This document shows, piece after piece, positions 40,501-55,606 of a stretch of 64,000 nt of DNA. This stretch comes from a virus. The position numbers were made by a program, and so were the translations under genes. The stretch spans positions 170,632 through 234,631 of the IMG/VR virus record IMGVR_UViG_3300029258_003221. One strand, 5' to 3'. Numbering within the stretch: the stretch's first letter is position 1; every line of letters begins with the position of its first letter. Under the pieces are notes generated by a model that was not told the DNA's origin, searched no databases, and worked only from the letters and a program-made list of their open reading frames with translations.

Positions 40501-40541
40501 GTCGTCTCCTTGGTAATCAAACGGACTTCACACCATCACAA

Positions 40542-40569
40542 ATAGTAACGATGCTTTTTTGATTGTGCA
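40542..40569 (-). promoter_or_regulatory. probable promoter of the HTH regulator gene
   Basis: TGCACA (40564-40569) and TACTAT (40542-40547) on the minus strand are 16 bp apart. This is a weaker relative of the TTTACA/TAGAAT family. It leaves a leader of about 35 nt. Confidence 0.5.
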
Positions 40570-40585
40570 ACCGAGTTTTGATAAA

Positions 40586-40653: not shown

Positions 40654-40698
40654 TAAAACTCCCTGCCATCTCATCGTCCGTATAGAAATGGCAGGGAG
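40654..40698 (-). terminator. intrinsic terminator directly before the tRNA
   Basis: On the minus strand CTCCCTGCCAT ... ATGGCAGGGAG (11 bp) is followed by TTTTA, and the tRNA begins at the next base. It should end transcripts of the gene at 40713-41021, so the tRNA needs readthrough or its own promoter. Confidence 0.88.
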
Positions 40699-40712
40699 CG
40701 GGCCGAATGCCA

Positions 40713-41021
40713 TTAGTTTTCCAATACTTCGATCACCTCAGATCGAGAAAATTCGACAATGTCACAACAAGTAATATCCATTTCAAATCGAGGGATATTG
40801 TCCAAAATTCCACGCAGTTCTTCGTCGTTGTTTTCAGCTATGCTAGTGACAAGCACCCACATGTATTCACACTTACCACATTTCGTCGGAAACGAAAGTT
40901 TAACATGCTTACCGGCAAAGAAATCCAAAGATTGTTCAACAAAGCGAGGATCAGGTGGCCTTGTGCCTTCAGAGACAATTCCAATATTGAATGCTGGTTC
41001 AATCAAGGGAACCTCCTTCAA
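40713..41021 (-). CDS. hypothetical protein with CxxC, 102 aa
   Basis: An acidic protein; KCGKCEYMWV gives one CxxC and DITCCDIVEF a Cys pair later, together perhaps one zinc site. It overlaps the upstream gene by ATGA. No family recognised. Confidence 0.65.
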   Translation of the reverse strand: MKEVPLIEPAFNIGIVSEGTRPPDPRFVEQSLDFFAGKHVKLSFPTKCGKCEYMWVLVTSIAENNDEELRGILDNIPRFEMDITCCDIVEFSRSEVIEVLEN

Positions 41022-41779: not shown

Positions 41780-41793
41780 TTAAACACCTTTCG

Positions 41794-41970
41794 TTACATG
41801 CACCATTGACTATTGGCGTAAAATGTAGGCGATTCAATCCAACAACAAGCTTCCTCTCCAAGAATCTTGCGTTGTTGATCAGTCAGGTTTATTTGGTCAT
41901 ATAAACCCTGTTTCCGAAGCTGCCTCTGTTCCTCTGTCAACAAAGACAGTGCCTGTTGCTTGTCGAACAA
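41794..41970 (-). CDS. hypothetical protein, 58 aa, TTG start
   Basis: The frame from TTG at 41970 has AGGAG seven bases upstream, in which TAG of the preceding gene forms part of TAGGAG. It reads FDKQQALSLLTEEQRQLRKQ, then TDQQRKILGEEACCW to a TAA at 41794. Helical, with a CC pair. No ATG exists in the frame before the last residue, so it is easily missed. Confidence 0.65.
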   Translation of the reverse strand: MFDKQQALSLLTEEQRQLRKQGLYDQINLTDQQRKILGEEACCWIESPTFYANSQWCM

Positions 41971-41981
41971 TCGACCAACTC

Positions 41982-42857
41982 CTAAGCAGCGACAGTCAGG
42001 AATTTCTTGACTGACTCTTCCATACGTGCAGCACGCTTTTCTGGCTCTTCGCCAATAGCGAACTCAAAGTTCTGACACACGATGGTGATTTTGACAAATC
42101 GCAGCAGGTTTCGCAACTGTTCGACATTCTCACAGTAGCTGCAAGCTCGCTCCATGAAACCGTCCTTGATTTTCAGGACTTTATCCATAACGAGCAACCC
42201 ACGCTCTTCATCTGTGATAGGAGGCAGACTGACATTCTTTCTGCCTTTAGCGGGACTGGCATTAAAGTAACCAAGCAGTTTTTTTGCAAGGCCCTTCTCT
42301 GTCTCATCTTTGCTGTAGTAAAGCTTGTCGAAGCTTTTGATGAGATTAAGCTGACTTTCAATGATGAACTCAGCATCGCTTTCATCACCAGATTCAGCAA
42401 CGATCTTTTCAGCAGTCTTCTGAGAAAGACCCACAAGATCACTGGTGAGAGCAGCAATCACCACACTTTCAGGTGTTTCATCTTCCTGAAGTTCATCAGG
42501 TTTAGGGATGAAAGACGCAAGAGCGTTAGTTCGAAATTTCACCATGAAGAGAAACGACATGTCTCTCACCACGGCAGAATCTTTTTGAACGACAATTCGA
42601 GGATTTGGTGGAAGCTGTTTGTCATTCCACATAGCCTGCGTCCATCTTTCAAAAAGCTTGTTGCCAACAACAGCTTTCTTTTGCTTGACCACAGGATCAA
42701 TGACTTCTGCCACTGCTGCCGAACTGATCAGATCCCTGACATCATCAATCAATTCTGTGTCTGGGTTCCAAACAGTCTCGTTCTTCTTTTTAACGTCTGA
42801 AGACTTCTTCTTTGTTGCTTTGGAAGCAACCTGTTGCAGCAAATCCGGCTTTGCCAT
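41982..42857 (-). CDS. hypothetical protein, 291 aa
   Basis: An acidic, mostly helical protein with a lysine-rich start (ASKATKKKSSDVKKKNE) and an acyl-carrier or death-domain-like middle of unknown family. It is the last long gene of the run that includes the Mpa-like ATPase but has its own promoter at 42903-42931. Ends in TAG. Confidence 0.65.
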   Translation of the reverse strand: MAKPDLLQQVASKATKKKSSDVKKKNETVWNPDTELIDDVRDLISSAAVAEVIDPVVKQKKAVVGNKLFERWTQAMWNDKQLPPNPRIVVQKDSAVVRDMSFLFMVKFRTNALASFIPKPDELQEDETPESVVIAALTSDLVGLSQKTAEKIVAESGDESDAEFIIESQLNLIKSFDKLYYSKDETEKGLAKKLLGYFNASPAKGRKNVSLPPITDEERGLLVMDKVLKIKDGFMERACSYCENVEQLRNLLRFVKITIVCQNFEFAIGEEPEKRAARMEESVKKFLTVAA

Positions 42858-42902
42858 TTTTCAACCCTCTTTCGTGAATGTTTGAAACTTGTTTACCCCA
42901 AC

Positions 42903-42931
42903 ATTCTACGGAAGATTTTTTGGGTTGTAAA
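42903..42931 (-). promoter_or_regulatory. promoter, GCTTTACA / TAGAAT family
   Basis: TTTACA (42926-42931) and TAGAAT (42903-42908) on the minus strand, 17 bp apart, CG next to the -10. It drives the gene at 42857 with a leader of about 39 nt. Confidence 0.8.
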
Positions 42932-42938
42932 GCAAATG

Positions 42939-43421
42939 TCAATTTTCAGACAAGAATTTTTGGTAATGATCCCAAACGCCCAAGTCTTTGATGAAGTGTT
43001 CGGCAAGATCCAAACTTTTCTTTGCTTCACTTTCGGGGACTTCTGTCTTTGGTGTTACATCCTTTTCTTTCTTGGGAGCAACCTCTTCGGTTGTTGTATT
43101 GGATGCAAAATCAAAGAGTTGATCAATTGCCAATTCCTGTCTGGCCAACATCAGTTTGGCTTTCAACATAACCGCTCTTTCCTGACACAGTTTACGTGTG
43201 TCAATGATGTCACGTTCACGTTGACGGAATTGATTTTTGATATCAAGCATCATGTCATAAGCTTCATGATCTTCAGGTGGCATTGGTGCCGACTTGATCA
43301 TTTCCATGAGATGATATTCTTGATTCCGACTGAGTTCCCAGTCGGTCAATGAATCAATGAGAGTTTCAATGTCTTCTCTTGAAAATGTAGATTCAAGCGA
43401 GGCCATCCTTGGTCCTTTCAA
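42939..43421 (-). CDS. coiled-coil protein, 160 aa
   Basis: Residues 55-105 form a basic and acidic helix (MMLDIKNQFRQRERDIIDTR ... KAKLMLARQELAIDQ). It starts 7 bp after the Mpa-like ATPase gene stop, so it is co-transcribed with it and may be an adaptor or substrate-binding partner; that is inference. The C-terminal part is acidic. Confidence 0.65.
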   Translation of the reverse strand: MKGPRMASLESTFSREDIETLIDSLTDWELSRNQEYHLMEMIKSAPMPPEDHEAYDMMLDIKNQFRQRERDIIDTRKLCQERAVMLKAKLMLARQELAIDQLFDFASNTTTEEVAPKKEKDVTPKTEVPESEAKKSLDLAEHFIKDLGVWDHYQKFLSEN

Positions 43422-43427
43422 AAATAT

Positions 43428-45128
43428 TTAAGCAGCACCGAAACAACGAGTCACAGTCATGTCTTTAGACTGCAAATGGTGCTTTTCTGCAAAGTCATGT
43501 AGGTCGTAAGCGTGATTCAGTCCCTCCTGCTCTTTGTAGGCTTCCTGAACAGCTTGTCGGAAGTCCATGATGTCCACACCAGTTGATGTGCCTTCAAGAA
43601 CATCCCGTTTCAAAGCAATCATCTTGGCACTTTCTGAAATCTGCTTCAGCATAGCACCATTGATCGTATCGGCAAATGAGAAGTCATGTTCATTGTTGAT
43701 ACGATACAACAATCGACTTCTACTAAAGATATCAGCAACTGTTACTGCTAATACCTGCTTCTTATCACCTTTGAACGGTGTATTAGAAGTATGAATCGCC
43801 ATTATGTCAAGAGCAGCATCTTCATCAGGACGATCAATTTTGATGTGATGAGAAATTCTTTCAGCACGAATCACTGCCGGGTCCAAAATATCGATTCTAT
43901 TCGTCATCAAAATGACAATTGGATTTTCTTTTGTTTGCTCTTCGTCCACGCCATCCATCTCACCCAAAAACATGGGGACCAATGTGTCGGCAATATCACT
44001 GGAACGACGTGTACCACGTTGTGGCATAATTGCATCAGCTTCATCAATGGCCAACAAAGCTGGATAACCATGTTGCCTGTAATGTTCACGTCCTCTGGCA
44101 AACAATCCACGAATTTCACCTTCAGAATTCCCCACATACATGTCAAGGATTTCCGGGCCTTTGACAAACAGATAACCTGTATCGATCACCTCTTTGCCAT
44201 GCACTTCAGCAATCAACCAAGCACAAAGACGAGCCAATAAAGTTTTTCCACAACCCGGTGGCCCATGCAAAACTGCACCTTTGGGTCTGCTCATCCCATA
44301 ATGTTCAAAAAGCTCAGGCTGAGAATAAGGCAACTCCAAAAACTCTCTGATCATTTCTTTTGGACGTTCCAGCCCACCAATACTGTCCCAATTGATGTTT
44401 GACTGATGGCCAAGCGTATATCTTTTTCGATTGTCTTTATTGAGCTTTTTGACAACCATCAAATAACCAGAGTCAACAGCTATTTTATCTCCATCTTTCA
44501 GTTCAATACCTTGTGGATTATACACAAGGTAGCGTTCACCTTTGTTGTTTATTTCGACACACTGATCAACCACGCCTTCAACAGTGCATATGGGACCACT
44601 GTTGAGATCATATTCAGCATGACCCACAATTTGGTTTTTTTCGTTTACTTTAACGAAATCACCGGGAGACAGGTCATAAGCAGGATGTTCCAACTCCCAA
44701 AGTTTCCCATCAACAATAGCAACAACAAACCGCCCATCTGATTTTTCTGCTAGATGAATTTGCTGAGGCTCATTGAGACCTATGCTGTATTGACCTGAGC
44801 CATCTTCAAAAGCAACAGTGGCTATTCCATCATTAACCTCTGTAATAGAACCAACTTTTTTGTAGTTGGGAGCTTCCTCATCGATAACCATCACTCGATC
44901 ATCTGGTTGGAAGGCAGTAACATCTACTTTGTTGTGAACAGTATGAACAACAGCGTAGCGATAAGGAACAGAACCCAATTGTTGGATAACTTCATGTTGT
45001 TCAATTAGCTTATCTTGCTGTTCCTTCAAAATAGCTCTTAAAGAGGCGACTTCTTCATTATGACGCCTTCGTTCGCTGGAGAGCTTTCTCTGTACTTCAC
45101 GTTCAATATGTTGCTGTTGTTCGTCCAT
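43428..45128 (-). CDS. ARC/Mpa-like proteasomal AAA ATPase
   Basis: A 566-aa protein laid out as the proteasomal ATPase ARC/Mpa: an N-terminal coiled coil (residues 1-50), two OB-like beta domains (about 55-235) and one AAA module. Walker A is GPPGCGKT (289-296) and Walker B ALLAIDEAD (357-365). The pore loop lies in YLFVKGPEILDMYVG, and an arginine-rich sensor region follows. ARC/Mpa unfolds proteins for the 20S proteasome. The C-terminus ends CFGAA without the hydrophobic-Tyr-X gate-opening motif, and no proteasome gene is in view, so it may be a stand-alone unfoldase or use another protease. Confidence 0.85.
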   Translation of the reverse strand: MDEQQQHIEREVQRKLSSERRRHNEEVASLRAILKEQQDKLIEQHEVIQQLGSVPYRYAVVHTVHNKVDVTAFQPDDRVMVIDEEAPNYKKVGSITEVNDGIATVAFEDGSGQYSIGLNEPQQIHLAEKSDGRFVVAIVDGKLWELEHPAYDLSPGDFVKVNEKNQIVGHAEYDLNSGPICTVEGVVDQCVEINNKGERYLVYNPQGIELKDGDKIAVDSGYLMVVKKLNKDNRKRYTLGHQSNINWDSIGGLERPKEMIREFLELPYSQPELFEHYGMSRPKGAVLHGPPGCGKTLLARLCAWLIAEVHGKEVIDTGYLFVKGPEILDMYVGNSEGEIRGLFARGREHYRQHGYPALLAIDEADAIMPQRGTRRSSDIADTLVPMFLGEMDGVDEEQTKENPIVILMTNRIDILDPAVIRAERISHHIKIDRPDEDAALDIMAIHTSNTPFKGDKKQVLAVTVADIFSRSRLLYRINNEHDFSFADTINGAMLKQISESAKMIALKRDVLEGTSTGVDIMDFRQAVQEAYKEQEGLNHAYDLHDFAEKHHLQSKDMTVTRCFGAA

Positions 45129-45169
45129 CCTTGGACTCCTTTAGAGAGTGGACTTTATTAGACAACAGC

Positions 45170-45198
45170 ACTCTAAGTTTGATACTTAAAAAGGTCAA
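45170..45198 (-). promoter_or_regulatory. probable promoter of the Mpa-like ATPase gene
   Basis: On the minus strand TTGACC (45193-45198) and TAGAGT (45170-45175) are 17 bp apart. It lies just after the terminator of the preceding gene, the only place a promoter for the ATPase could be. Leader about 40 nt. Confidence 0.55.
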
Positions 45199-45212
45199 GA
45201 TGAATCTTAGAA

Positions 45213-45249
45213 CAAAAAAAGGGAATAGGCCAAAAACCTATTCCCTTTT
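45213..45249 (-). terminator. intrinsic terminator
   Basis: GGGAATAGG-loop-CCTATTCCC on the minus strand, followed by TTTTTTTG. It ends the transcript of 45266-46000. Confidence 0.93.
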
Positions 45250-45265
45250 GAAAACTCATTGAAAT

Positions 45266-46000
45266 TTACGGCTCGGTGATTTTTACACCATTGTCCGTAT
45301 TTTCAATATTGAATGAATCACCAGTCATATTGGCTTCATGGAGAGTCCTACGAGCAAGTCGAAGATCACCATTTCTTTCAATCTTTCGCTGATCAATAGA
45401 AAGGTAACCCTGAAGCCCACTTGTGATGTTTGTCAGCAGGATTTCACCGTCGTTGATCACAACATTGACAGTGTCATTTGGCTCAATTTCAGCTTCACGC
45501 AGAAATTGCGTTCGGATGAACAAACCACCTCGGCAATTGGTCTTATAGGTGCCATCATCCTGCTCACCGCCAACATCATCTGCATCGTCATCAGAACCAA
45601 GCGGGCTGCTACCGCTGATTCCTGCTGGTGCAGACGTACAAACTGTCGGTGAGGAAGTTTGAGCTGCGACAGGTGATGAAGTTGATTGACCTTTGGAGTA
45701 TGAATCGGCCATTGGCTCATACTGTGAAAGATCATAGCCATTTGGGTGATAAACAAGGACTTGCGTGCCATTATGCAGCGAAGTCAGTGTTTTGTCCCAA
45801 TCACCGAAATCATCACAAAGTTCAATGAGACTGGGAATTTCATGAATCCCCTGACGATTGGGACCATGACGCATTTGAACACCTTCCCGACGACGAGTCT
45901 CAACAGTGAGATCGTAACCACTGAAAGGTCTGCCCTGCTCAACAAAGGCATCGATTGTTTTTTCGTACAAAGCTTCAATATTTGAATCTAAACGGCACAT
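45266..46000 (-). CDS. hypothetical protein, possible AbrB-like C-terminus
   Basis: A 244-aa protein. A Ser/Thr/Ala-rich linker (about residues 100-140) and an acidic DDDADDVGGEQDD patch join an N-terminal domain to a C-terminal one. The C-terminal part reads GGLFIRTQFLREAEIEPNDT, then VVINDGEILL, the swapped-hairpin pattern of AbrB/SpoVT DNA-binding domains. It has its own promoter and terminator. The call is tentative. Confidence 0.6.
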   Translation of the reverse strand: MCRLDSNIEALYEKTIDAFVEQGRPFSGYDLTVETRRREGVQMRHGPNRQGIHEIPSLIELCDDFGDWDKTLTSLHNGTQVLVYHPNGYDLSQYEPMADSYSKGQSTSSPVAAQTSSPTVCTSAPAGISGSSPLGSDDDADDVGGEQDDGTYKTNCRGGLFIRTQFLREAEIEPNDTVNVVINDGEILLTNITSGLQGYLSIDQRKIERNGDLRLARRTLHEANMTGDSFNIENTDNGVKITEP

Positions 46001-46066
46001 TTGGTTTCCTCCATTAGAGTTTCTTTGTTATCGACAAGAGCAGGCAATTTCTGTAGGACTTCTTAC

Positions 46067-46095
46067 ATTCTACGACCAAAAAATTAAATTGTAAA
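46067..46095 (-). promoter_or_regulatory. promoter, GCTTTACA / TAGAAT family
   Basis: TTTACA (46090-46095) and TAGAAT (46067-46072), 17 bp apart on the minus strand, with CG beside the -10. Leader of about 60 nt to the ATG at 46000. The -35 region overlaps the tail of the upstream gene's intergenic space. Confidence 0.8.
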
Positions 46096-46106
46096 GCAAC
46101 ATAGAT

Positions 46107-46379
46107 TCATTTAGATGATTCTACAACAAACTGGAGAGCATCTAACGCCTTTTGTTTGTTGCCTTCACAAACCTCAATTAACCGTTCTGCCGCTTTAATT
46201 CGTCGATTATGGGGCGTTGCACCCACCCCTCTCATTTTACTCCAAGCAACCTGAAAAGCTCGTTTACGTCCTATAAACTGAGGGTATGTTTGCACAAGGC
46301 AATTCCAAGCATCATTGGCATGAATAATTGATTTGTCTTTAAGGATATTTCTCAACCCTTCAGCAACACTCTTTGCCAT
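46107..46379 (-). CDS. hypothetical protein, 90 aa
   Basis: Start MAKSVAEGLRNILK (46379, TGATG overlap with the Nudix gene). A basic, helical protein (RRIKAAERLIEVCEGNKQKA) that could bind nucleic acid. No family recognised. Confidence 0.6.
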   Translation of the reverse strand: MAKSVAEGLRNILKDKSIIHANDAWNCLVQTYPQFIGRKRAFQVAWSKMRGVGATPHNRRIKAAERLIEVCEGNKQKALDALQFVVESSK

Positions 46380-46927
46380 CACTGAATCCAATTCATTTGA
46401 TTCACTAAATCATCAAGTTCCATACCAGCAGTTGCTTTGAAGTTATTCTGACGAAAAGCCTCAAAACCGCTATTTGGACCATAGTTCATGATATGAACAA
46501 GCACACTCCCCGAATTCTCTGAATCAATGTGTTCGCCGGTCAAAGAACACATGCGAATTCTCTTGAGTTCTTCGTATGGAACATGAATCCCAAAACAATG
46601 CTGACACATCTTACGCTCTTTGGTGCTGTAAGAGCCAACAAGATGCACTTTGTCGATAAGGTGCTGAATGTTATAATTGACTTCCTCTTGCACTTCCCGC
46701 ACCAAAGCTTCCCGCAAAGTCTCTTCCCCATCGACTTTGCCACCGGGAAAACCAAACGTGCCATCCCACCGCAACTGCATCATCACCGTGGGAATAACTG
46801 TATTTCGGTGGTTCTCAGAAACATCTTTGTAGTTCCTGTAAGGTTTGCCATCTTCTGCATAGAAGGCTGCAAAGACACAATGAAATGCACCGGGAACCAT
46901 TTCTTCATTGCCAATCCTTATGTACAT
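46379..46927 (-). CDS. Nudix hydrolase
   Basis: A 182-aa protein with a complete Nudix box: G63, E69, R77-E78-V79 and E81-E82 fit Gx5Ex7REUxEExGU. Upstream FGFPGGKVDG is typical. The family cleaves nucleoside diphosphates linked to X, such as ADP-ribose, NADH or RNA caps. In T4-like phages Nudix proteins act on ADP-ribose and on 5' RNA ends, so it may belong with the PARP and macro proteins. The substrate cannot be read from the sequence. Confidence 0.88.
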   Translation of the reverse strand: MYIRIGNEEMVPGAFHCVFAAFYAEDGKPYRNYKDVSENHRNTVIPTVMMQLRWDGTFGFPGGKVDGEETLREALVREVQEEVNYNIQHLIDKVHLVGSYSTKERKMCQHCFGIHVPYEELKRIRMCSLTGEHIDSENSGSVLVHIMNYGPNSGFEAFRQNNFKATAGMELDDLVNQMNWIQ

Positions 46928-47289
46928 CAGAAATTTGCTCCGCTACGGTGAAGTTTGTCGTAGAGATCGTTCCAGTCAATTTTATGAAACCGCTCCAAAT
47001 GATCGACAACACCATCACCCAATTTTTCCATATCGGGCATTTCACCATTGCGAATTCGATAAGCAGGTGTAGCCACAAGGCTGCAAACTTCAGCAAGTGC
47101 CGTTTGCTGATAAGAAGACAGGATCAATTGTCCAGCCAGAGCCATTTTGATCTCACGAGCAAAAGCGTTCAACACAGCCATTGCCGTGCGGAGTTCTTGT
47201 GCCTCCATCTCACCTGCATGAAGCAAGACCTCCTGCTCATTGGTCCATCGTTCAATGACTTTGTCGATCTCAGTTATGTCTTTTGACAT
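46927..47289 (-). CDS. hypothetical protein, 120 aa
   Basis: A helical protein with Ala-rich segments (ELRTAMAVLNAFAREIKMAL) and no recognised domain. Its stop overlaps the Nudix start by 1 bp. The 72-bp space upstream holds a GTTTTTAGTTA/TAACTAAAAAAC inverted repeat. Confidence 0.65.
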   Translation of the reverse strand: MSKDITEIDKVIERWTNEQEVLLHAGEMEAQELRTAMAVLNAFAREIKMALAGQLILSSYQQTALAEVCSLVATPAYRIRNGEMPDMEKLGDGVVDHLERFHKIDWNDLYDKLHRSGANF

Positions 47290-47361
47290 CGAAGCACCTG
47301 TAGAAAAGATTGACGGGGTGTTGGGGTTTTTTAGTTACACAAGCGAAGCAGCAACCCCTAA

Positions 47362-47757
47362 CTAAAAACTACTCTGATTAGTCAAACCCGCCAATCTCAA
47401 AGTTTCATTGATTTGAAAAAAGCTGTTTCTGAAATTGATTGACTCTATGGGAAATGCCAACTCTCTCAAATCGATACCGACTGTTTTCTTATCTTGTGAG
47501 ATTGACACTTTCCGAAAAACAAGATGCAACTCAGTTTCCTGTGGCAAACAGGCCACAACTCCACGAGGTGGTTTTTTGAGAAAACCTAAGAACAATCCAC
47601 GAAATGTCACAGTCTTTGAATCATCAAAACCAAACTGTTCTCTAAACCATGGGATGATCGTATTCTCTTCGTTGACAACTTCAAACTCAGCCCACTTGTT
47701 GATGTACTTCTTATAATGACCATATAGCCAACCAAGAGATGGAGCATTAAAAGTCAT
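47362..47757 (-). CDS. hypothetical protein, 131 aa
   Basis: A beta-rich protein (KTVTFRGLFLGFLKKPPRGV; ETELHLVFRKVSIS). It ends in TAG within the inverted repeat. ATGA overlap at its start. Function unknown. Confidence 0.6.
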   Translation of the reverse strand: MTFNAPSLGWLYGHYKKYINKWAEFEVVNEENTIIPWFREQFGFDDSKTVTFRGLFLGFLKKPPRGVVACLPQETELHLVFRKVSISQDKKTVGIDLRELAFPIESINFRNSFFQINETLRLAGLTNQSSF

Positions 47758-47978
47758 TCGGCGTTTAACTTTCTACTTGTCCAATCATGGAGCCAAAAGG
47801 TAAATCGATGAGGAAATAGACCAATACACATGTGTGCAAAACAGTTGTGAAACAACCACCAACAGTGGTGTTGGATCAGTGGAAACCGTTTCCCTTTGGC
47901 TCTGAATTTGTCGATACGTTTGTAGAAACGGCCCCAACTGCCGAGTTCTTCCGCTTCTTCTTCCTCAAACCCAAACAT
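47754..47978 (-). CDS. hypothetical protein rich in His and Trp, 74 aa
   Basis: The C-terminal part (HHCWWLFHNCFAHMCIGLFP and HDWTSRKL) resembles a short motif, WxxHNxxAHpLxG ... HDxTxxxL, found in many phage hypothetical proteins from memory. The His and Cys residues suggest metal binding. Overlaps the upstream zinc-ribbon gene by 14 bp. Confidence 0.65.
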   Translation of the reverse strand: MFGFEEEEAEELGSWGRFYKRIDKFRAKGKRFPLIQHHCWWLFHNCFAHMCIGLFPHRFTFWLHDWTSRKLNAE

Positions 47979-48153
47979 TGATTTTTCCCTTCACCGATTT
48001 TCCTGATTGCAATCGACTTTCGAGTCGCTTGACAACACAAGTGCCACAAAGTGGACCACCATCTGATGTTTTGATTCTATTCCATGTCTCATCAGAAACA
48101 ACAACGCTGACTTTGTAAGTCTTGCCACAGTTCTCGCATCGATGATCACTCAT
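47965..48153 (-). CDS. zinc-ribbon protein, 62 aa
   Basis: ATG at 48153. CENCGKTYKVSV and LCGTCVVKRL give two CxxC pairs about 30 residues apart, a clear zinc ribbon. It sits 3 bp after the PARP stop and is co-transcribed with it. Nucleic-acid or protein binding is possible. Confidence 0.7.
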   Translation of the reverse strand: MSDHRCENCGKTYKVSVVVSDETWNRIKTSDGGPLCGTCVVKRLESRLQSGKSVKGKINVWV

Positions 48154-48156
48154 CAA

Positions 48157-49809
48157 TTATCTCCAAGAAACTTCTGCAAGATATTTGATCATGTGACGAC
48201 CCTTTTTGTAGATAATGAACTCGTTATTGGCAAGGTAGCCACCACTCATGCCGCCCTTACCAAACACGTGGTGAGTTCCTTTGCTGGCTGTCATACTTCT
48301 GCCGCCACCTGTACCTGCAATATCCGGCATTCCAAGACAAACATCACAAAGCATCATAAAAGAATGACGACCAGAAATTCCACCATCACCAGCATACATT
48401 GAACCCGATGCTGAACAATACTGCGAAGATTTCTGCCAGTCGTCAGCAAAGTAAATTCCCTGACCAAATGCAGCACCATTTGTAGCTACATTGACAAGTT
48501 CCTGTGGGAATCGGAAATTCTCTCTCAAGATACCAGCAACATTTACCGAACGAGTTCCGTGGAACAAAGCGGCAGTATTGGTTTCCCAATACTTTCTCCG
48601 TTGAGCTGGAGTCAAATCAGGACGCTTTTTGTCCTGATGTAACGGACGATCACCATCAGAAAGCTTTTTCATTTCTGATTTAATTTGATCCTGTGACTTT
48701 GTGAAAGTCTTGTCATCGCCATGACGAAGGACTTCCCAAAGATGATGAACGGTCAAAGAACCACGACCACCATATCTATTTTTGGTAGCTTCTTTCCACC
48801 AAGCATAAAGATACTTGCCAATTTCTGAAGTCTTAGAAATATGCTTCATATCCAAAGGCATTCCCGCCATCGGATCATTACCATCATCTTCAATGGTGAA
48901 ATCGCCAGTCTTCAAAGCAGATTCAAAAGCATCAATTTCAAGTTCCCACTCATTGATGTTATTCGCTGAAAGAATCCATGAGCTTTCATGTGCATTGAGC
49001 GGTTTGATTTTAGGAATCAACCCATACAAAGCATAAGTGATCTGCTTCAATTCCTGATCATTGACCTGATTGTCAACATCACCACCAACTTTGCCAACAC
49101 GTTTAAGTGCAGCCTGAAGCAAATCTCGACCCTGATCCAGTGCTTTCTGTGACGGAACAGTGCCTCCTTGAAGTGTGGTACGAGCGTGCTGAATCGTACC
49201 GCCAAGAAGATCACGCATTAGTTTTGAGGTTTCAATATCGCAGCGATTTTTGCTCTTGGCTTTGGTTTTCTTTTTAGAACCGTTAGATGAAGCAGAAGAT
49301 TGAGTAGAACCATCGTCAGCAGAAAGATTACGGGCATCTGGAAGACCCGTATCACGTGAGACGAGCGGCCTCACAGCGTACAGATCTTTCAGCTTACCCT
49401 TGCTATCTTTCTTTGGCACGAACATATCGATGCCGCCAACTTTATCCCATACACCTCGGGATGTATTCTTGGATTTACACTGCTTGACAAAAGCAGCCAT
49501 TGCCTCATCTTTGCTGGAGCATTGCGTAAACTGGAATGTAGGATTATTTCCCACACGACCAAACTCAACATAAAGATACCAGTCCCCATCTGGATCACTC
49601 ACCACAGCAGCGTGATAAAATTTATTTGAATCAACCTTACGAGCGCTGCCATCTTTGGAAACACCCTTTTCTTCCTGCTGAAAACAGCCCATATCGGCCA
49701 GCATACAGCCTTCAAACTTTGTATCTTCAGTGGCGACAGGACCATGACACTTAAAGTCATCAGGACCAAGACCTTTTGGGTATTCTTTTTTGTCGAGTTT
49801 AGTAGCCAT
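48157..49809 (-). CDS. PARP1-like WGR-PARP ADP-ribosyltransferase
   Basis: A 550-aa protein. A WGR domain lies at about residues 62-125 (KFYHAAVVSDPDGDWYLYVE, then GRVGNNPTF), followed by a Ser/Lys linker, a helical PARP regulatory domain (about 195-330) and the catalytic domain. The H-Y-E triad is present: H417 in LFHGTRSV, Y453 in GQGIYFAD and E530 in NNEFIIY, which predicts NAD+-dependent poly- rather than mono-ADP-ribosylation. In eukaryotes WGR senses DNA breaks. Bacterial and phage PARPs are known but uncommon. The target could be phage or host DNA-bound proteins. A macro protein, a Nudix and a deoxyribosyltransferase-like gene lie in the same window. Confidence 0.9.
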   Translation of the reverse strand: MATKLDKKEYPKGLGPDDFKCHGPVATEDTKFEGCMLADMGCFQQEEKGVSKDGSARKVDSNKFYHAAVVSDPDGDWYLYVEFGRVGNNPTFQFTQCSSKDEAMAAFVKQCKSKNTSRGVWDKVGGIDMFVPKKDSKGKLKDLYAVRPLVSRDTGLPDARNLSADDGSTQSSASSNGSKKKTKAKSKNRCDIETSKLMRDLLGGTIQHARTTLQGGTVPSQKALDQGRDLLQAALKRVGKVGGDVDNQVNDQELKQITYALYGLIPKIKPLNAHESSWILSANNINEWELEIDAFESALKTGDFTIEDDGNDPMAGMPLDMKHISKTSEIGKYLYAWWKEATKNRYGGRGSLTVHHLWEVLRHGDDKTFTKSQDQIKSEMKKLSDGDRPLHQDKKRPDLTPAQRRKYWETNTAALFHGTRSVNVAGILRENFRFPQELVNVATNGAAFGQGIYFADDWQKSSQYCSASGSMYAGDGGISGRHSFMMLCDVCLGMPDIAGTGGGRSMTASKGTHHVFGKGGMSGGYLANNEFIIYKKGRHMIKYLAEVSWR

Positions 49810-49866
49810 AGTAATTCTCCTTTGTCGCCATTATCGAATGATCAGGTGTCAAACTTTACTGGTTTA

Positions 49867-50334
49867 TCAAGAAACCCGATCAACCGCCTGCTCAATAAGT
49901 GCTTTTAAAGTGTTACAAGGTGTCTCGTTCGTTCTTTTTTCATACATGCGATCAAGATACCTTGTTTTAGGAGCACCATCAGGGCGACCATAAACAAATC
50001 GACCACAATTCAAATACATGCCAAATTCCACATTGGTAGTGAAAGCTGGCATGTTTTCCAATTCTCGTGGCACCCAAGCAGCAATGCAGCCTCTTTGAGA
50101 AGACAAAACCAGTGCCGCATCTTCCCAATCAACTTGGTCAATGTAAGTTTGAACAACCATTCCAAAAACCTCTGGGACAAACACGGTTCCCTTGAACCCC
50201 GTTTCTTCCAAAAGTTTAATTGCCTCTGGTCTCCATGATGGCACGCTTGGGCTTCTTGGTGTTGGCCCTACCAAGAAGATACAAGGCATCTGTTCGTCGT
50301 CAACCAAATCGCCGGGACAGATAATTCTCATCAT
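49867..50334 (-). CDS. nucleoside 2-deoxyribosyltransferase-like protein
   Basis: A 155-aa protein with IFLVGPTPRSPSVPSWRPEA, VDWEDAALVLSS, AAWVPRELENMPAFTTNVEF and a Gly-rich end, the pattern of the nucleoside deoxyribosyltransferase-like 2 family. These enzymes, or relatives, cleave or swap the base of nucleosides; N-glycosidic cleavage of NAD-like molecules is also found in the wider superfamily. It lies next to the PARP gene. The Glu in NVEF would be the catalytic one. Confidence 0.75.
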   Translation of the reverse strand: MMRIICPGDLVDDEQMPCIFLVGPTPRSPSVPSWRPEAIKLLEETGFKGTVFVPEVFGMVVQTYIDQVDWEDAALVLSSQRGCIAAWVPRELENMPAFTTNVEFGMYLNCGRFVYGRPDGAPKTRYLDRMYEKRTNETPCNTLKALIEQAVDRVS

Positions 50335-50957
50335 GATCCACCACCCACATTCCCATCGACATCAAGGTAACGACCGGGTTTGCCACGTTTGCCCTTGAAG
50401 TGTTCATTGATTTCACGATAAGCCACCCAAACATCCTGATCGTAGAATTCAGTTATCGCTTTGTGAAAGAAGGGAACAGCTTTGTTTAACACATGTGGTC
50501 GAAAGTGGTTGACATCCACTCCTACGTTGAATGAGTTCAATTGAACTTTCCAAGCTGAATGAATGTGTCCAACGAGATTGAAACGGTCGGCTCGGCCCTG
50601 TGTTGGATAGTGCGTAATCCAACAAGGAACACCTTCTACATCAATTTCAAGACCATCGCCTTCAGCAACGATTTCATCGAAATATTTTGATAGCTGTTCG
50701 TCGGTAAACACTCGGTCATGATTTCCTCGAAAGAGGATTTTCCGACCATTGAAATGACTCACCTGTGAGAGAAATTCAGGCGTGTTTAGATTTACAGCAT
50801 CGCCAACGACGTAGACTGTATCATCAGGTTCAACGAGTTCATTGTGCAGGAAAATAAATTCATCAACCATGTGCTGGGCACTTACAAAACCCGGACGCCC
50901 CATGATTTCAAATCGATCTTCGCCAAGATGCCAGTCAGAAGTAATGAAATCTGTCAT
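50331..50957 (-). CDS. metallophosphoesterase
   Basis: Start MTDFITSDWHLGED (50957). The calcineurin-type motifs are in order: SDWHLGE (DxH), VVGDAV (GD), FRGNHDR (GNHD), THYP and GHIHSAW (GHxH). It is a two-metal phosphoesterase of the kind phages use on nucleotides or on 2',3'-phosphates; the substrate is unknown. ATGA overlap with the deoxyribosyltransferase-like gene. Confidence 0.85.
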   Translation of the reverse strand: MTDFITSDWHLGEDRFEIMGRPGFVSAQHMVDEFIFLHNELVEPDDTVYVVGDAVNLNTPEFLSQVSHFNGRKILFRGNHDRVFTDEQLSKYFDEIVAEGDGLEIDVEGVPCWITHYPTQGRADRFNLVGHIHSAWKVQLNSFNVGVDVNHFRPHVLNKAVPFFHKAITEFYDQDVWVAYREINEHFKGKRGKPGRYLDVDGNVGGGS

Positions 50958-50958
50958 A

Positions 50959-51165
50959 TCAACCCCGATAATCCCATTCCCATCGTTCATCTACGAGTTG
51001 ATTGCCATCCTTGCGACAGGAGTAACAAGCCATGGCACCATAGTCTCCTTTGAGACTTTTGGCTTCTTTGTTGCTGTCGGCAGTGTCGAAAACAGATGCA
51101 TCTTCTGTCCCCTGATCACCGCAAGCACGACTGTCATACAGAATGTATGTTCTTTCTTCAGGCAT
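50959..51165 (-). CDS. hypothetical protein with CxxC, 68 aa
   Basis: Start MPEERTYILYDSRACG (51165, 8 bp overlap); longer frames shadow the upstream gene. MACYSCRKDG gives one CxxC, perhaps with RACGD the second half of a zinc site. Many phages have a similar short protein (ERTYILYDxRAxxxGTxDA), from memory. Confidence 0.65.
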   Translation of the reverse strand: MPEERTYILYDSRACGDQGTEDASVFDTADSNKEAKSLKGDYGAMACYSCRKDGNQLVDERWEWDYRG

Positions 51166-51388
51166 GTTTTGATCTCGGTTCCTCAAACTTGTTGCGAAAC
51201 TCTTCATACTCACGGTAGAGCGTTTCGTGAATTTCATCGTGCCTATCGGTGTTGCGATAGACATCCATATACCATTCGTCAATCTTCTCTGGAGTGGGGT
51301 CAAACTCCGAATCGAGATTGTAGAAAATCCACCATGTGACCAGATCACGTATCTGTGGCCAAAGCTTCATCTTTGCTGCTACTGCCAT
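51158..51388 (-). CDS. hypothetical protein, 76 aa
   Basis: A helical protein rich in Glu, Arg and aromatic residues (KIDEWYMDVYRNTDRHDEIH). First gene after the promoter at 51425-51453. No family recognised. Confidence 0.65.
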   Translation of the reverse strand: MAVAAKMKLWPQIRDLVTWWIFYNLDSEFDPTPEKIDEWYMDVYRNTDRHDEIHETLYREYEEFRNKFEEPRSKHA

Positions 51389-51424
51389 GATATCTCCTAC
51401 AAACTTGAAGTTAAATCCAAGAAC

Positions 51425-51453
51425 ATTTTACGAACGAAAAGTTGGCTTGTAAA
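51425..51453 (-). promoter_or_regulatory. promoter, GCTTTACA / TAAAAT variant
   Basis: TTTACA (51448-51453) and TAAAAT (51425-51430), 17 bp apart on the minus strand, CG beside the -10. Leader of about 30 nt. The promoter lies inside the 3' end of the interrupted gene 51411-51791. Confidence 0.8.
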
Positions 51454-51533
51454 GCAAACTGAAGCGTCACATTCCATTTTTCATCACATGAAGCCTCATG
51501 AGTGATTCGCAGATGAAGATCGCTGCCTCTTTT

Positions 51534-51572
51534 GTGAACTACCCCGACCCTAAAGAGGTCGGGGTAGTTCAC
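51534..51572. repeat. perfect 16-bp inverted repeat with 7-nt loop
   Basis: GTGAACTACCCCGACC is repeated inverted after a 7-base loop, giving a strong hairpin inside a coding-like frame (VNYPDLFRVGVVH). It has no U-tract on either side, so it is not a normal terminator. It could be an inserted element, a protein-binding palindrome or an RNA stabiliser. Confidence 0.85.
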
Positions 51573-51783
51573 CCAATCCGGCCTCATATCAGGCTTGCCA
51601 TCTTCAATCCATAATGACAAAGCAAAACAAATGCCTTCACCAAAATCACCATCGCCACCAAATTTGATATCGAATTACGGCTCAAGATATCTGGCTAATG
51701 CATAAGCAATGTGCATTGCTTCTTCATTGTGTTCAACTCCATTTTCCCAACGATCTTCAATGCGTTTAGCATAAGATTCTTTT

Positions 51784-52377
51784 TTAGCCATTATGATACC
51801 AATCAGTGTATGCTTTGATTGTTGTGTTCTTTGTGTTTCTTACAGAAGAAAGTCCTCTACATGGCATTTCATCATCATTATGACAAGATAAAGAAACGCC
51901 TTCTTCATCGAACAGTTTGATCATATTTCTTGCAGATGGCAAACAACCTAAATTTTGAGCCACTGTCGCATCTTTGTTTTCACCATCTCTAAAAGGACAA
52001 GCTTGACATCGCCTTAATGAAAATCCCTTGGATTCAATACGTTCAATAATAAGACGACGAGCTTCTGTGGTTGGTGACCAATTGTTCATTTGTTTATCAG
52101 GAATTTCACGAAAAGCACCGCCCATCCATGTTACATTGAAATCACGATCTTCACATTCAAGAAAAATTTCTAAGTAACGTGTGAGCAAGTAACCAATTTT
52201 ATCGTAAAAAAACCGTACATGTCCGGTGCCAAGCGTGAAATCCTTTGGAATTTTTCCTTCAAGGACTGCACGTCCTGAACGCACAGCATTTGGAATACGA
52301 ACAATTTCACGATGTTCTGCAAGAAGCAATTTATCTGGAAGTTCAAAAGGATGAACCCCAGCATTGATGCGTGTCAT
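51784..52377 (-). CDS. denV: DenV-like pyrimidine dimer DNA glycosylase
   Basis: A 197-aa protein; its first 80 residues match T4 endonuclease V: MTRINAGVHP, LAEHREIVRIPNAV, FTLGTGHVRFFYDKIGYLLT. The catalytic Thr2 and Glu24 (E23 in T4) are present. T4 DenV excises UV-induced pyrimidine dimers and nicks the abasic site. Here the enzyme has about 60 extra C-terminal residues with several Cys (RRCQACPFRDG ... SLSCHNDDEMPCRGL) that could bind zinc or an Fe-S cluster. The stop overlaps the next ATG. Confidence 0.8.
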   Translation of the reverse strand: MTRINAGVHPFELPDKLLLAEHREIVRIPNAVRSGRAVLEGKIPKDFTLGTGHVRFFYDKIGYLLTRYLEIFLECEDRDFNVTWMGGAFREIPDKQMNNWSPTTEARRLIIERIESKGFSLRRCQACPFRDGENKDATVAQNLGCLPSARNMIKLFDEEGVSLSCHNDDEMPCRGLSSVRNTKNTTIKAYTDWYHNG

Positions 52378-52387
52378 GACTTCCCTT

Positions 52388-52657
52388 TCATGTCACAGAG
52401 AGAATTTCCTCAATCGCCTGTTTGTGGTTCATTGCATTTTTCCACTCAGTGCGAACGAACTCTTTGTTTTCTTCTCGTTTAGTGGGTGTCACATTTTGCC
52501 GACCTCCACAAAAAGACCAGCCACACCCTCCACAAATCCATGTGGAGGGGTGCCAGCCATATACTTTCACCAAAAATCGCCTTTTCTTTCTACATGTCGT
52601 GCATTTGCGAACAGCACGAGCCACAAAAGATTTTGGGCGATAAATGTAAAGATTCAT
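52388..52657 (-). CDS. zinc-finger hypothetical protein, 89 aa
   Basis: RKCTTCRKKRR and WICGGCGWSFCGG form two CxxC pairs, a zinc ribbon in a basic protein, so nucleic-acid binding is likely. A GGGTGTC copy at 52484 is one of only two full heptamers after 36.4 kb. Confidence 0.65.
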   Translation of the reverse strand: MNLYIYRPKSFVARAVRKCTTCRKKRRFLVKVYGWHPSTWICGGCGWSFCGGRQNVTPTKREENKEFVRTEWKNAMNHKQAIEEILSVT

Positions 52658-52929
52658 GCCTGTTCCTCGATAACCAAAGATTCGGATTGCTCTTCGGCCT
52701 CATTTGCCCAAGAATGTAAATTCTCAGCAAAATTTCTAGCTGTCTCAGTTGTCATCTGAAAACGAATTGTATTCGTGCGTTCAACATTCACCATGCTTCC
52801 ACCATGAAATTCCATTGCTTTATCAAATGTCGTGAGCACAGCTTCAATTTCTGGAACAGTCTTTTTGCCTTCTTTCGTCTCAATCATTGTGTGACGAATA
52901 TTTCTGGCAACAGTCATCAAAGATTCCAT
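52654..52929 (-). CDS. hypothetical protein, 91 aa
   Basis: A helical small protein with a beta segment (TNTIRFQMTTETARNFAENL). The fold recalls small phage proteins that clear or bind nucleotides, but no motif supports this. ATGA overlap with the zinc-finger gene. Confidence 0.6.
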   Translation of the reverse strand: MESLMTVARNIRHTMIETKEGKKTVPEIEAVLTTFDKAMEFHGGSMVNVERTNTIRFQMTTETARNFAENLHSWANEAEEQSESLVIEEQA

Positions 52930-52939
52930 TAGTCGTCTT

Positions 52940-53227
52940 TCATTCTTCAGTTTCGTCTTTGTCGTCTTCCAGTGGAATGTATTTGCTCAAGTTATACTTG
53001 CGATATGCAAAACAAAAGATCACTGCACCGATAATCGAAAACAGCAATCCTGCTGGACCAAATGAACCACCAGCAATCAACCAGTTAATCATACCACCTA
53101 TGAAACTTCCTGCAACCCCAATCACCAGAGTAGCAATTAAGCCACCCGGCTCAGGCCCCGGATGTATAGCTTTCCCAATCAGGCCCGCTACGAAACCAAT
53201 CACCAAAATCCAAATCAAATAAAACAT
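52940..53227 (-). CDS. GlsB/YeaQ/YmgE family membrane protein
   Basis: Start MFYLIWILVIGFVAGLIGKA (53227) with GGAG upstream. Three hydrophobic helices with Gly-rich turns (VIGVAGSFIGGMINWLIAGG, SIIGAVIFCFAY) are the signature of the transglycosylase-associated protein family. It is a small inner-membrane protein often linked to stress in bacteria, with unclear function. The C-terminus is acidic. Confidence 0.85.
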   Translation of the reverse strand: MFYLIWILVIGFVAGLIGKAIHPGPEPGGLIATLVIGVAGSFIGGMINWLIAGGSFGPAGLLFSIIGAVIFCFAYRKYNLSKYIPLEDDKDETEE

Positions 53228-53228
53228 A

Positions 53229-53339
53229 TTAACTCTCCTTGTTGTTTTGAACCACTTTATTTTTGGTCCATGTATATAGATCTTTCGCCACCGCACAGCA
53301 TACAACGAGAACCATGCCTTTAACTATGTCTCTTATCAT
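53229..53339 (-). CDS. small membrane peptide, 36 aa
   Basis: ATG at 53339 has AAGGAG about six bases upstream, inside the end of the C39 gene. The frame MIRDIVKGMVLVVCCAVAKD has one short hydrophobic stretch (residues 9-18) and a basic tail. It ends just before the ribosome site of the GlsB-like gene. Confidence 0.55.
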   Translation of the reverse strand: MIRDIVKGMVLVVCCAVAKDLYTWTKNKVVQNNKES

Positions 53340-53988
53340 ATGCTCTCCTTGGGGCTATCAAAGTGAACTCAAAAACATCTGATATTTTGAGTGCCCACTT
53401 CCAGTGATCCGAGCCAAACTCATTGCCACGTAAATCACCTGTGAAAGACCATGCTTTCATGAATATATCTAGGGCTACTATTCTCTCTTTGCCATATCCG
53501 GGATCTGCCAATGTGATTTTTTGCTCGTCATAACCAACAACCACAACATAATGCCATGTGTTCAAGCCACTCCTCACAAGTACAATAGTTGGACGATTTT
53601 GACTGACATAGTATTTCAAGTGGCCAATGTTGGATCTTTGAAGTTTGGCAGGTACACCAAAATCCTTAACTGTTCTTTCAACAAAGTCTGGAGAAGTCAT
53701 TCCTACAGACTTTTCTCCATATTTAAACCACTCTGTCTTGGCGTTTTTTGCTGCATCTTCGATGCTGACATCTTTGCCATAATATTGCAACAACATAGCA
53801 CATGAAGTTGGGCCACAGGTAATCCCATCAGGTTGTTTAAAAATCGGCGAAAAATCAATATGATGAGATGATGGATAATCAACTAAAACAAACTGTTCGT
53901 AATTTATTAAGACCACAAAAAACAAAAGCATTGTAGCCAATATGCTCCATTTCTTTCGTTTGAAAAAGTCTATAAAAAAAGCGTTCAT
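53320..53988 (-). CDS. C39-like cysteine peptidase, membrane anchored
   Basis: A 222-aa protein. One N-terminal membrane helix (residues 15-33) is followed by a papain-like domain with Q52, C58 in DGITCGPTSC, H146 in NTWHYVVVVGYD and D162 in LADPGYG, the C39 catalytic set. C39 enzymes cleave double-glycine leaders; here no transporter is fused. It may process a peptide at the membrane. The start codon sits in a terminator-like hairpin (53974-54014). Confidence 0.8.
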   Translation of the reverse strand: MNAFFIDFFKRKKWSILATMLLFFVVLINYEQFVLVDYPSSHHIDFSPIFKQPDGITCGPTSCAMLLQYYGKDVSIEDAAKNAKTEWFKYGEKSVGMTSPDFVERTVKDFGVPAKLQRSNIGHLKYYVSQNRPTIVLVRSGLNTWHYVVVVGYDEQKITLADPGYGKERIVALDIFMKAWSFTGDLRGNEFGSDHWKWALKISDVFEFTLIAPRRAYDKRHS

Positions 53989-54014
53989 TCCTTATTTAGA
54001 AACGAACGCTTTTA
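53974..54014 (-). promoter_or_regulatory. terminator-like hairpin over the C39 start codon
   Basis: On the minus strand AAAGCGTTC ... GAACGCTTT (9 bp) is followed by TTTTATAG, and the ATG lies inside the loop side of the 3' arm (ATGAACGCTTT). This would terminate or block translation unless relieved, so it may be an attenuator. The plus strand also reads as a terminator. Confidence 0.55.
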
Positions 54015-54033
54015 TTCCCCCGCCACCATTGAT

Positions 54034-54360
54034 TTAATCAGGCATATCTATGTCTTTTGTTGAAATCGAATTGTAAACTTCATACATCATAGATGATACT
54101 ATTTTCGACATACGATAAATTTCCGGGTCCATCAAAATTGCTGGGTGATTTTGAACATAATGTTCCCAGTTTTCTGCAACCATAAAACTTCTGTCAACTG
54201 CCTCGTGACAACCGAAAGTGTTTTTGCCAAAAAGCCTTTTGATTTCATCTTCTGAATCATATGTCTCCAGAGCTTTCTGGAGATCTTCCATTCGTTCCGC
54301 TTCAGCGTATTTAATTGCGGATTGTATAACTGATTGTTCTCGTTGAGAAAGTTCCATCAT
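54034..54360 (-). CDS. hypothetical protein, 108 aa
   Basis: A helical, acidic protein (REQSVIQSAIKYAEAERMED; KIVSSMMYEVYNSIS). ATGA overlap with the upstream gene. No family recognised. Confidence 0.65.
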   Translation of the reverse strand: MMELSQREQSVIQSAIKYAEAERMEDLQKALETYDSEDEIKRLFGKNTFGCHEAVDRSFMVAENWEHYVQNHPAILMDPEIYRMSKIVSSMMYEVYNSISTKDIDMPD

Positions 54361-54629
54361 TCACTTCCTAATGATTCTGTTGTTTTCAAATCCATTGTGC
54401 CCAATTTTTGCAAATCACCACATTCAGGACAATACATTTCAACTTTAGTATGCGGAAGCATGTAGTGTCGAACTCGCACATGAGTGTGCTTAATGTAATA
54501 AACAAGCAGTTCATTTTCAATAAAAGCAGGCTCTATTTTTTCATGTCTTGCTTTGATTTCAAAATGACCATAAGCATTGATGCCAATCAATGCAAAAATG
54601 AGCATAACTGAAATAATATATTTAACCAT
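54357..54629 (-). CDS. membrane-anchored zinc-site protein, 90 aa
   Basis: An N-terminal membrane helix (YIISVMLIFALIGINAY), a helical stretch with many His, then MYCPECGDLQ with a CxxC. Similar in layout to the next gene upstream (54639-54917), which has an N-terminal helix and CERCKEE; the two may be partners or distant duplicates. Confidence 0.65.
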   Translation of the reverse strand: MVKYIISVMLIFALIGINAYGHFEIKARHEKIEPAFIENELLVYYIKHTHVRVRHYMLPHTKVEMYCPECGDLQKLGTMDLKTTESLGSE

Positions 54630-54638
54630 ATGACCTCC

Positions 54639-54917
54639 TTAGTCATTGTTTTCGACATAATCCTTTATGTCAGCTTGAAATCTCATGTATTCTTCTTTGC
54701 ATCTTTCGCACTCAGGAAACAACCCTTCATGTTTAGCAGCAAGATGCCAAGTAATCATCTCTGTTTGCATTACTGTGCCAAATTGATTGTTTGAAACCGT
54801 GATGAAATCTTCAATGAAATCTTCACGTTCAAGTTGCTGGTGTAAATTCCAGCCAGTCCATGCAACAGCAGTTATCTGCAAACAAATAAACAACAACCAT
54901 CCTATGGTTTTCTTCAT
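54639..54917 (-). CDS. membrane-anchored small protein, 92 aa
   Basis: Signal-anchor helix IGWLLFICLQITAVAWTGW at residues 4-22, then a soluble helical part with HEGLFPECERCKEEYM (CxxC). Acidic C-terminus. No family recognised. Confidence 0.65.
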   Translation of the reverse strand: MKKTIGWLLFICLQITAVAWTGWNLHQQLEREDFIEDFITVSNNQFGTVMQTEMITWHLAAKHEGLFPECERCKEEYMRFQADIKDYVENND

Positions 54918-54970
54918 GTTTACCTCCGTGTAAACTTAAATTTTAGTTAACTGTGATTAGAAGATCAAGA

Positions 54971-55570
54971 TCAATAAGAAACAGATTTCAGAACCGTTTC
55001 GATTCTTTGTCTGATTTTTTCAAACACAGGTCTTCCAAACTCAGCAATGATTTCGTCTTTTCTTGCCTCAAAAGCTTCAAACAGACCCTTTGCTCTGTAG
55101 AAATACTTTCGTGCATAACGCTTATCGCCAGAATTCAAATAATCTCTGACATTGCAAAGTCTGTCAGCAATCTTCACAACTAATGCAACAAGACTCTTGT
55201 TGATAAAATCTGCAAGATGCTCTGACTTTTCTTTCTGATAATCCTGTGGCGATTCATCAGGAAGACGATCTCGAAAAGTAAGCTCACCAACGTAATCAGC
55301 CACTTCTCTATTAAGCAAATCAGCTATCACTGATAGATCTTGATCTGTACCCTCATCGACATCGTGATTAAGAGCAGTAAGCCAAATATTGAGGTGCCGA
55401 GCATCTCTGATTCCGAAATGAAAAATCTCACGCATCACATCAAGCGGATGAATAAGATACGGAACCCTTAAATCGCCTTCACCGTTTCTGAAATCGCCAC
55501 CATGCGCTTTGGCAATAAAATCAATTGCAAAGGAAATGGCATCTTGTGGTGTGTTAAACTCTGTACTCAT
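54971..55570 (-). CDS. SpoT/MESH1-like HD hydrolase
   Basis: Start MSTEFNTPQDAISF (55570). The 199-aa protein matches the HD domain of RelA/SpoT hydrolases: AKAHGGDFRNG, VPYLIHPLDVM, ALNHDVDEGTD with the HD pair, then VVKIADRLCNVRD. These cleave the alarmone (p)ppGpp. There is no synthetase domain, so it fits a small alarmone hydrolase that could switch off the host stringent response. Its mRNA is probably leaderless, since the predicted start falls on the ATG. Confidence 0.82.
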   Translation of the reverse strand: MSTEFNTPQDAISFAIDFIAKAHGGDFRNGEGDLRVPYLIHPLDVMREIFHFGIRDARHLNIWLTALNHDVDEGTDQDLSVIADLLNREVADYVGELTFRDRLPDESPQDYQKEKSEHLADFINKSLVALVVKIADRLCNVRDYLNSGDKRYARKYFYRAKGLFEAFEARKDEIIAEFGRPVFEKIRQRIETVLKSVSY

Positions 55571-55576
55571 GTTTGC

Positions 55577-55605
55577 ATGGTACGGCAAAAAGATTTGGCT
55601 GTAAA
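55577..55605 (-). promoter_or_regulatory. promoter with start at the ATG (leaderless mRNA)
   Basis: TTTACA (55600-55605) and TACCAT (55577-55582) are 17 bp apart on the minus strand. Seven bases beyond the -10 is 55570, the first base of the HD hydrolase ATG, so the message should have almost no leader. Confidence 0.65.
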
Positions 55606-55606
55606 G

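Follow-up and report, generated by a model that had tools for sequence, protein, structure and literature searches.

A WGR-domain PARP of huge phages with a recurrent FTAY/AbrB partner gene, a proposed downstream ADP-ribose eraser and relatives in planctomycete type XIII retrons

The window analyzed here, a stretch of 64,000 nucleotides, forms the last part of an IMG/VR record of 234,631 bases. We assign the record, as an IMG/VR entry that encodes a T4-type portal protein (phrog_213, E 6e-72), to a tailed phage of jumbo size or larger. An open reading frame on the minus strand, running from its ATG start at position 49809 to position 48157 and preceded at about 8 nt by a good ribosome-binding site (AAAGGAG), encodes a poly-ADP-ribose polymerase (PARP)-like protein (Table 1). 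The frame is real, as originally predicted, and is on the minus strand; a chance reading frame is excluded because full-length relatives with 31-46% identity are found in huge phages and relatives also occur in Planctomycetota. Downstream lie genes for a NUDT16-like Nudix hydrolase and for a protein with a domain that we denote FTAY, followed by a hairpin that is possibly the end of the transcript and by the gene of an AAA ATPase. On the other side of the PARP gene, a weakly matching, putative nucleoside 2-deoxyribosyltransferase-like gene is the immediate neighbor, and genes for a phosphoesterase, a pyrimidine dimer glycosylase and a C39-like peptidase lie farther upstream. An Rfam search over window positions 40000-56000 yielded no match.

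Table 1. Features of the PARP locus (positions in the window)
Feature	Position	Strand	Basis
AAA ATPase resembling bacterial proteasome ATPase, adjoining the FTAY gene	43428-45128	-	TIGR03689, 2.5e-82, below cut-off
Terminator-like hairpin, 15 pairs, directly 3' of the FTAY gene	45217-45249	-	Consensus match only
FTAY-domain protein: N-terminal winged-helix-like, C-terminal tandem AbrB-like hairpins	45266-46000	-	
NUDT16-like Nudix hydrolase, proposed ADP-ribose eraser/processor	46379-46927	-	Pfam Nudt16-like, 2.6e-23
WGR-HD-ART PARP, 550 aa	48157-49809	-	Pfam; AlphaFold/Foldseek match to PARP1
PARP/ART catalytic domain, residues 395-548	48166-48627	-	Pfam; triad invariant
Triad codon E530	48220-48222	-	
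Triad codon Y453	48451-48453	-	
Triad codon H417	48559-48561	-	
Helical (regulatory) domain, about residues 192-390	48640-49236	-	Model helices; PARP1 HD+ART fragment matches
WGR domain, residues 60-115, motif F83-G84-R85	49465-49632	-	Pfam WGR; G84/R85 conserved
Nucleoside 2-deoxyribosyltransferase-like gene (weak), directly 5' of PARP	49867-50334	-	Pfam Nuc_deoxyri_tr2, E 0.026, below cut-off
Phosphoesterase, two genes 5' of PARP; end overlaps next gene	50331-50990	-	phrog_547, 1.9e-30
T4 endonuclease V-like pyrimidine dimer glycosylase	51784-52377	-	phrog_1183, 4e-28
C39-like peptidase with N-terminal hydrophobic stretch	53320-53988	-	

Pfam searches with the 550-aa protein identified a PARP domain (E 2.1e-20) and a WGR domain (E 1e-9), both above the curated cut-offs, and the catalytic residues H417, Y453 and E530 show no variation across the 34 aligned phage PARPs, which bears out the original prediction of a WGR domain combined with an intact H-Y-E triad. 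The helical regulatory domain (HD), also predicted, was recovered in the structural model and not by Pfam: PARP_reg gave no match even at E 10, unlike in related phage proteins, where it is detectable. The AlphaFold model, computed with 34 phage PARP sequences as input (pLDDT 80, pTM 0.78), matched the WGR-HD-ART portion of DNA-break-bound human PARP1 (4opx chain C; E 3.5e-19; TM, normalized to target length, 0.72). For PARP1 fragments comprising HD+ART, TM reached at most 0.74. Thus, the model indicates that a helical domain is present, recognizable by structure only. The protein thereby has the features of clade 1 (PARP1/2/3-like) enzymes, namely, an H-Y-E ART domain, WGR and, by structure only, HD.

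Two residues deserve attention. The tryptophan that gives WGR its name is replaced by phenylalanine (F83), with G84 and R85 kept, and residue 447 is alanine, where nearly all relatives have methionine (G-x-M-F-G). The equivalent methionine of PARP1 sits at the acceptor site, and therefore polymer formation by the window PARP cannot be assumed; E530 would fit a polymer-making enzyme, and A447 calls for caution.

The protein matches the H-Y-E PARP profile and lacks the R-S-E motif of T4 Alt/Mod-type enzymes, in agreement with the earlier assignment to a family different from Alt, ModA and ModB. The rarity among phages implied by that assignment was, however, overstated. PARPs of phages Aeh1 and phi4:1 were reported in 2014 (PMC4245714) and that of jumbo phage XacN1 (BBA65562) in 2021 (PMC7824862), and in 2022 PARPs were listed among the frequent viral ART families (PMC9503650). 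Additionally, the annotation of a Klebsiella phage FBKp34 protein (QQV91759) lists a WGR, a regulatory and a catalytic domain. The protein class is thus known, and it is the gene setting that appears to be new.

Querying IMG/VR with an alignment yielded 72 loci with PARP relatives; the same type of scan of viral contigs with a single PARP protein as the query found nothing. Over its full length, the window PARP is matched at six of these loci with 31-44% identity; five are distinct, L018 being a near-copy of L019. Among annotated phages, the only close relative is encoded by the 595-kb LR756511.1 (43-46% identity, 99% coverage). The PARP at one huge-phage locus (L016:7995-9626) contains a direct internal duplication, with KMTIKNLWRVQRRGD present twice, that is absent in its relatives and is either a recent event or an assembly error. 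A sigma-70-like factor is conserved 5' of the PARP gene in huge phages L002, L015, L016 and L017.

Full-length close cellular relatives were found at eleven loci among 84,980 prokaryotic species genomes, all in Planctomycetota (37-44% identity) and including the cultured Neorhodopirellula pilleata Pla100. In the phylogenetic tree, a comparison with bacterial PARPs that the original prediction had called for, the window, huge-phage and planctomycete PARPs form one 16-member clade with 100/100 support. Given that every one of the nearest cellular PARPs is planctomycete and that they fall in one clade with the phage protein, we infer that the host is likely a planctomycete.

The FTAY domain, named here after its conserved FTAYDVT motif, comprises the N-terminal ~100 residues of the partner protein and was modeled with a winged-helix fold (closest PDB structure, PadR-like 3elk, E 5.5e-3), and the C-terminal part was modeled as two AbrB-like hairpin repeats, with weak Pfam matches to MazE in L002 and L015. 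Among the PARP groups studied in depth, 10 of the 11 phage records encode FTAY, each exactly once in record-wide searches and always on the same strand as the PARP gene, 12-2792 bp downstream of it. The PARPs with an FTAY partner belong to four distinct groups in the tree; the record-wide search of L018, which belongs to the same PARP clade as the window, detected no FTAY. A collection scan with one FTAY protein found only the query itself, and a diverse FTAY alignment was unsuited to such a scan; the reverse search was therefore run with two close FTAY sequences. It yielded four new phage loci; in three of them FTAY has a same-strand WGR-PARP no more than 5 kb away, in one case at a distance of only 13 bases. 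At locus L131, FTAY occurs without a PARP within 7 kb, and a NADAR gene is found instead. Most phages with short PARPs have no FTAY and mostly no nearby eraser.

The third component is the candidate eraser. The product of the NUDT16-like gene contains a Nudix box, G..E..REVQEEV, read directly from the sequence, and NUDT16 has been described as a dePARylating enzyme (PMC10926213). We propose that the phage protein may hydrolyze protein-bound ADP-ribose. Searches of the 234-kb record detected no ARH, Macro or NADAR protein, only NUDT16-like or other Nudix proteins, and therefore the eraser is either a Nudix enzyme or lacking there. Nudix, ARH and NADAR proteins all have other substrates too.

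Nine of 10 records have an ADP-ribose-processing gene within 8 kb downstream of the PARP gene and on the same strand. It is ARH in four (L002, L015, L016 and L017; in L015 and L017 a Nudix gene adjoins it), NADAR in L018, L021 and L023, and Nudix in L020 and in the window. Against an expectation of 0.67 in 10, this linkage gives P 3e-11 if records are treated as independent, P 9.6e-10 without the window, and P 8.5e-7 when each synteny group is represented by a single record (5 of 6), values that are too small because related records share ancestry; furthermore, the idea came from the window and L002, both of which are in the tested set. Locus L129, found later, has ARH directly after FTAY and constitutes an independent repeat. 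This locus, which already carries PARP, FTAY and ARH, also encodes a further, weakly similar PARP-like ART (L129:11589-12455, E 4.5e-4).

At five planctomycete loci (L091-L094 and L097), the PARP gene follows a reverse transcriptase (RT), within retron operons ordered HEAT, ncRNA, SWIM, RT, PARP, Macro. In L091, PADLOC identified the genes 5' of PARP as HEAT-ARM_XIII (3e-160), SWIM_XIII (1e-183) and RT_XIII (2e-154), and it agreed with type XIII in L094 and L097, where run; the type assignment is that of the PADLOC profile names. The Macro gene is located 3' of PARP in L091-L094 and overlaps the PARP stop codon in L091. The retron RT has a YADD motif, and its extended N-terminus is a homolog of the phage FTAY domain (E 1e-17 to 1e-25). 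The HEAT and SWIM genes flank a conserved, structured RNA that includes a long hairpin; 18 of the 75 pairs predicted in this RNA are kept with both sides changed, albeit in four sequences only. A second PARP subfamily, accompanied by a different Macro protein, also occurs in type XIII retrons of planctomycete genomes (L108, L111 and L113). These observations suggest that some type XIII retrons use WGR-PARP and Macro as their effector pair; we found no account of this pair as type XIII effectors in the limited literature consulted, and an earlier description is possible.

Two further loci show related arrangements. L114:6178-8796 has SWIM_XIII followed by FTAY-AbrB with no RT, an RT-less relative of the retron operon, and at L095 (G045:C222) the planctomycete retron-type PARP is broken by an in-frame TGA and the RT is cut by the contig end. 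Across 398 Planctomycetia genomes, PARP is present in five and FTAY in seven, with four common to both (P 1.7e-7, likewise too small in view of shared ancestry); in G037, G038 and G040, the two genes are on different contigs. At planctomycete locus L089, PARP is followed by a stand-alone 97-aa FTAY protein without the AbrB part, and there is no RT at the locus.

We considered whether the phage itself carries a retron and rejected this possibility: RVT_1 was detected neither in its own record nor in ten related phage records. SWIM and HEAT profiles had no match in its own record, a 20-base core of the planctomycete ncRNA was absent from the window with three mismatches allowed, and the exact core was absent from all other loci examined. 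PADLOC gave no hit for PARP or FTAY. Acquisition of the phage PARP from a retron is likewise unsupported: the retron-linked PARPs form a monophyletic group (98/100) that does not include the phage PARPs.

In clade 1 PARPs, WGR reads DNA ends, HD restrains ART, and opening of HD switches ART on; ADP-ribose marks can be removed or shortened by Macro, ARH and certain Nudix enzymes. We favor, with moderate confidence, the interpretation that the window PARP is a catalytically competent ART of the DNA-break-activated type and the writer of a reversible cassette of huge phages that also includes the FTAY/AbrB partner and an eraser. WGR would sense a DNA end or an unusual DNA structure, the helical domain would be displaced, and ART would then ADP-ribosylate proteins on or near the sensed DNA. 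The FTAY protein, a PARP-associated domain joined to a nucleic-acid-binding module, could restrain or place the PARP, and the eraser, NUDT16-like here and ARH or NADAR in relatives, could reset the mark. The phage would most likely use the cassette against host DNA-associated proteins or host defense during infection. Modification of DNA-bound proteins and DNA repair, both put forward originally, are possible roles; the accompanying suggestion that the enzyme counters NAD-depleting defense finds no support, considering that a PARP itself consumes NAD+.

More tentatively, and with less than even confidence, FTAY might be an unrecognized PARP-docking adaptor that connects WGR-PARPs to a nucleic-acid module, so that the phage cassette and the retron would be two uses of one ADP-ribosylation switch. 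That module would be AbrB-like hairpins in phages and some planctomycetes, and the RT with its ncRNA/DNA in PARP-Macro type XIII retrons.

With respect to target and benefit, the main rivals are anti-retron action and repair. The phage PARP and FTAY protein could mimic components of the planctomycete type XIII PARP-retron and inactivate it, for instance by tying up its partner or DNA or through modification of its proteins. Kinship of phage and planctomycete PARPs within the 16-member clade, the FTAY domain common to the phage protein and the retron RT, the lack of RT in the phage records and an eraser that could undo a host mark are consistent with such counter-defense. We nevertheless consider it unlikely, given that the phage PARPs are not nested in the retron-linked clade, that the triad is intact although a decoy needs none, and that the PARP-FTAY pair also occurs at planctomycete locus L089, which has no retron.

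DNA repair or genome maintenance, in which a PARP1/2-like response would recruit or control ligase and repair factors on the large phage genome, is in our assessment improbable too. The WGR-HD-ART architecture, the pyrimidine dimer glycosylase in the window, the ATP-dependent DNA ligase adjoining PARP in L002 and the NAD-dependent ligase near PARP in L021, L023 and L025 all point in this direction. Repair genes are, however, common in huge phages, no single one is conserved beside PARP, and FTAY and the erasers are better conserved than any of them.

A toxin-antitoxin-like or superinfection-exclusion module, with PARP as a toxic ART, FTAY-AbrB as a MazE/AbrB-type antitoxin and the eraser as a second safeguard, appears rather doubtful: the AbrB/MazE-like C-terminus of FTAY and the pairing of Macro with PARP in planctomycete retrons speak for it, but several genes separate PARP from FTAY in most records, PADLOC detected neither protein, and L089 has no AbrB part. 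That the gene is a passenger, an ordinary PARP gained by horizontal transfer and without a conserved role, as its patchy distribution might suggest, is very improbable in view of the intact full-length frame, the triad kept invariant at 31-46% identity in huge phages and the conserved neighbors.

Phage PARPs have been known for a decade without a context hinting at how they work. The recurrence of the same partner and eraser with PARP across unrelated huge phages makes the proposed reversible cassette amenable to experimental testing as a unit, and the bacterial PARPs closest to its own are built into retron defense operons. The original prediction did not include the FTAY partner, the downstream eraser or the connection with planctomycetes and type XIII retrons, all of which are apparently new.

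Human PARP1 and PARP2 (clade 1) share with the window PARP the WGR-HD-ART order, the fold and the H-Y-E triad, at ~15-21% identity in the structural alignment; the phage protein differs in having no zinc fingers or BRCT, a ~55-residue N-terminal extension before WGR, and the Trp-to-Phe and Met-to-Ala replacements in WGR and at the acceptor site. The DNA-dependent PARP of Herpetosiphon aurantiacus, which makes a long PAR product (PMC4245714), is by description a bacterial, clade-1-like H-Y-E enzyme and shows that such enzymes can work. The XacN1 and FBKp34 PARPs are likewise phage-encoded and carry WGR, HD and ART, but they belong to another clade, are shorter (~425 aa) and are 30-32% identical to the window PARP over the catalytic domain, and their records, unlike the window phage, encode no FTAY protein. 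For Aeh1 and phi4:1, the likeness, taken from published descriptions alone, is that the PARP is phage-encoded. The uncultured phage LR756511.1 has an FTAY-AbrB protein and a downstream eraser, as the window phage does, but its eraser is ARH rather than Nudix and a DNA ligase lies between PARP and FTAY. The planctomycete WGR-PARPs, that of N. pilleata Pla100 included, are 42-47% identical to the window PARP along its full length and belong with it to the 16-member clade; unlike the phage gene, five of those examined are located in type XIII retron operons, four of them with Macro just downstream. Compared with the planctomycete variant of the type XIII retron, the phage is without RT, SWIM and HEAT, and the ncRNA core is missing from the window; what the two have in common is the FTAY domain and the PARP homolog.
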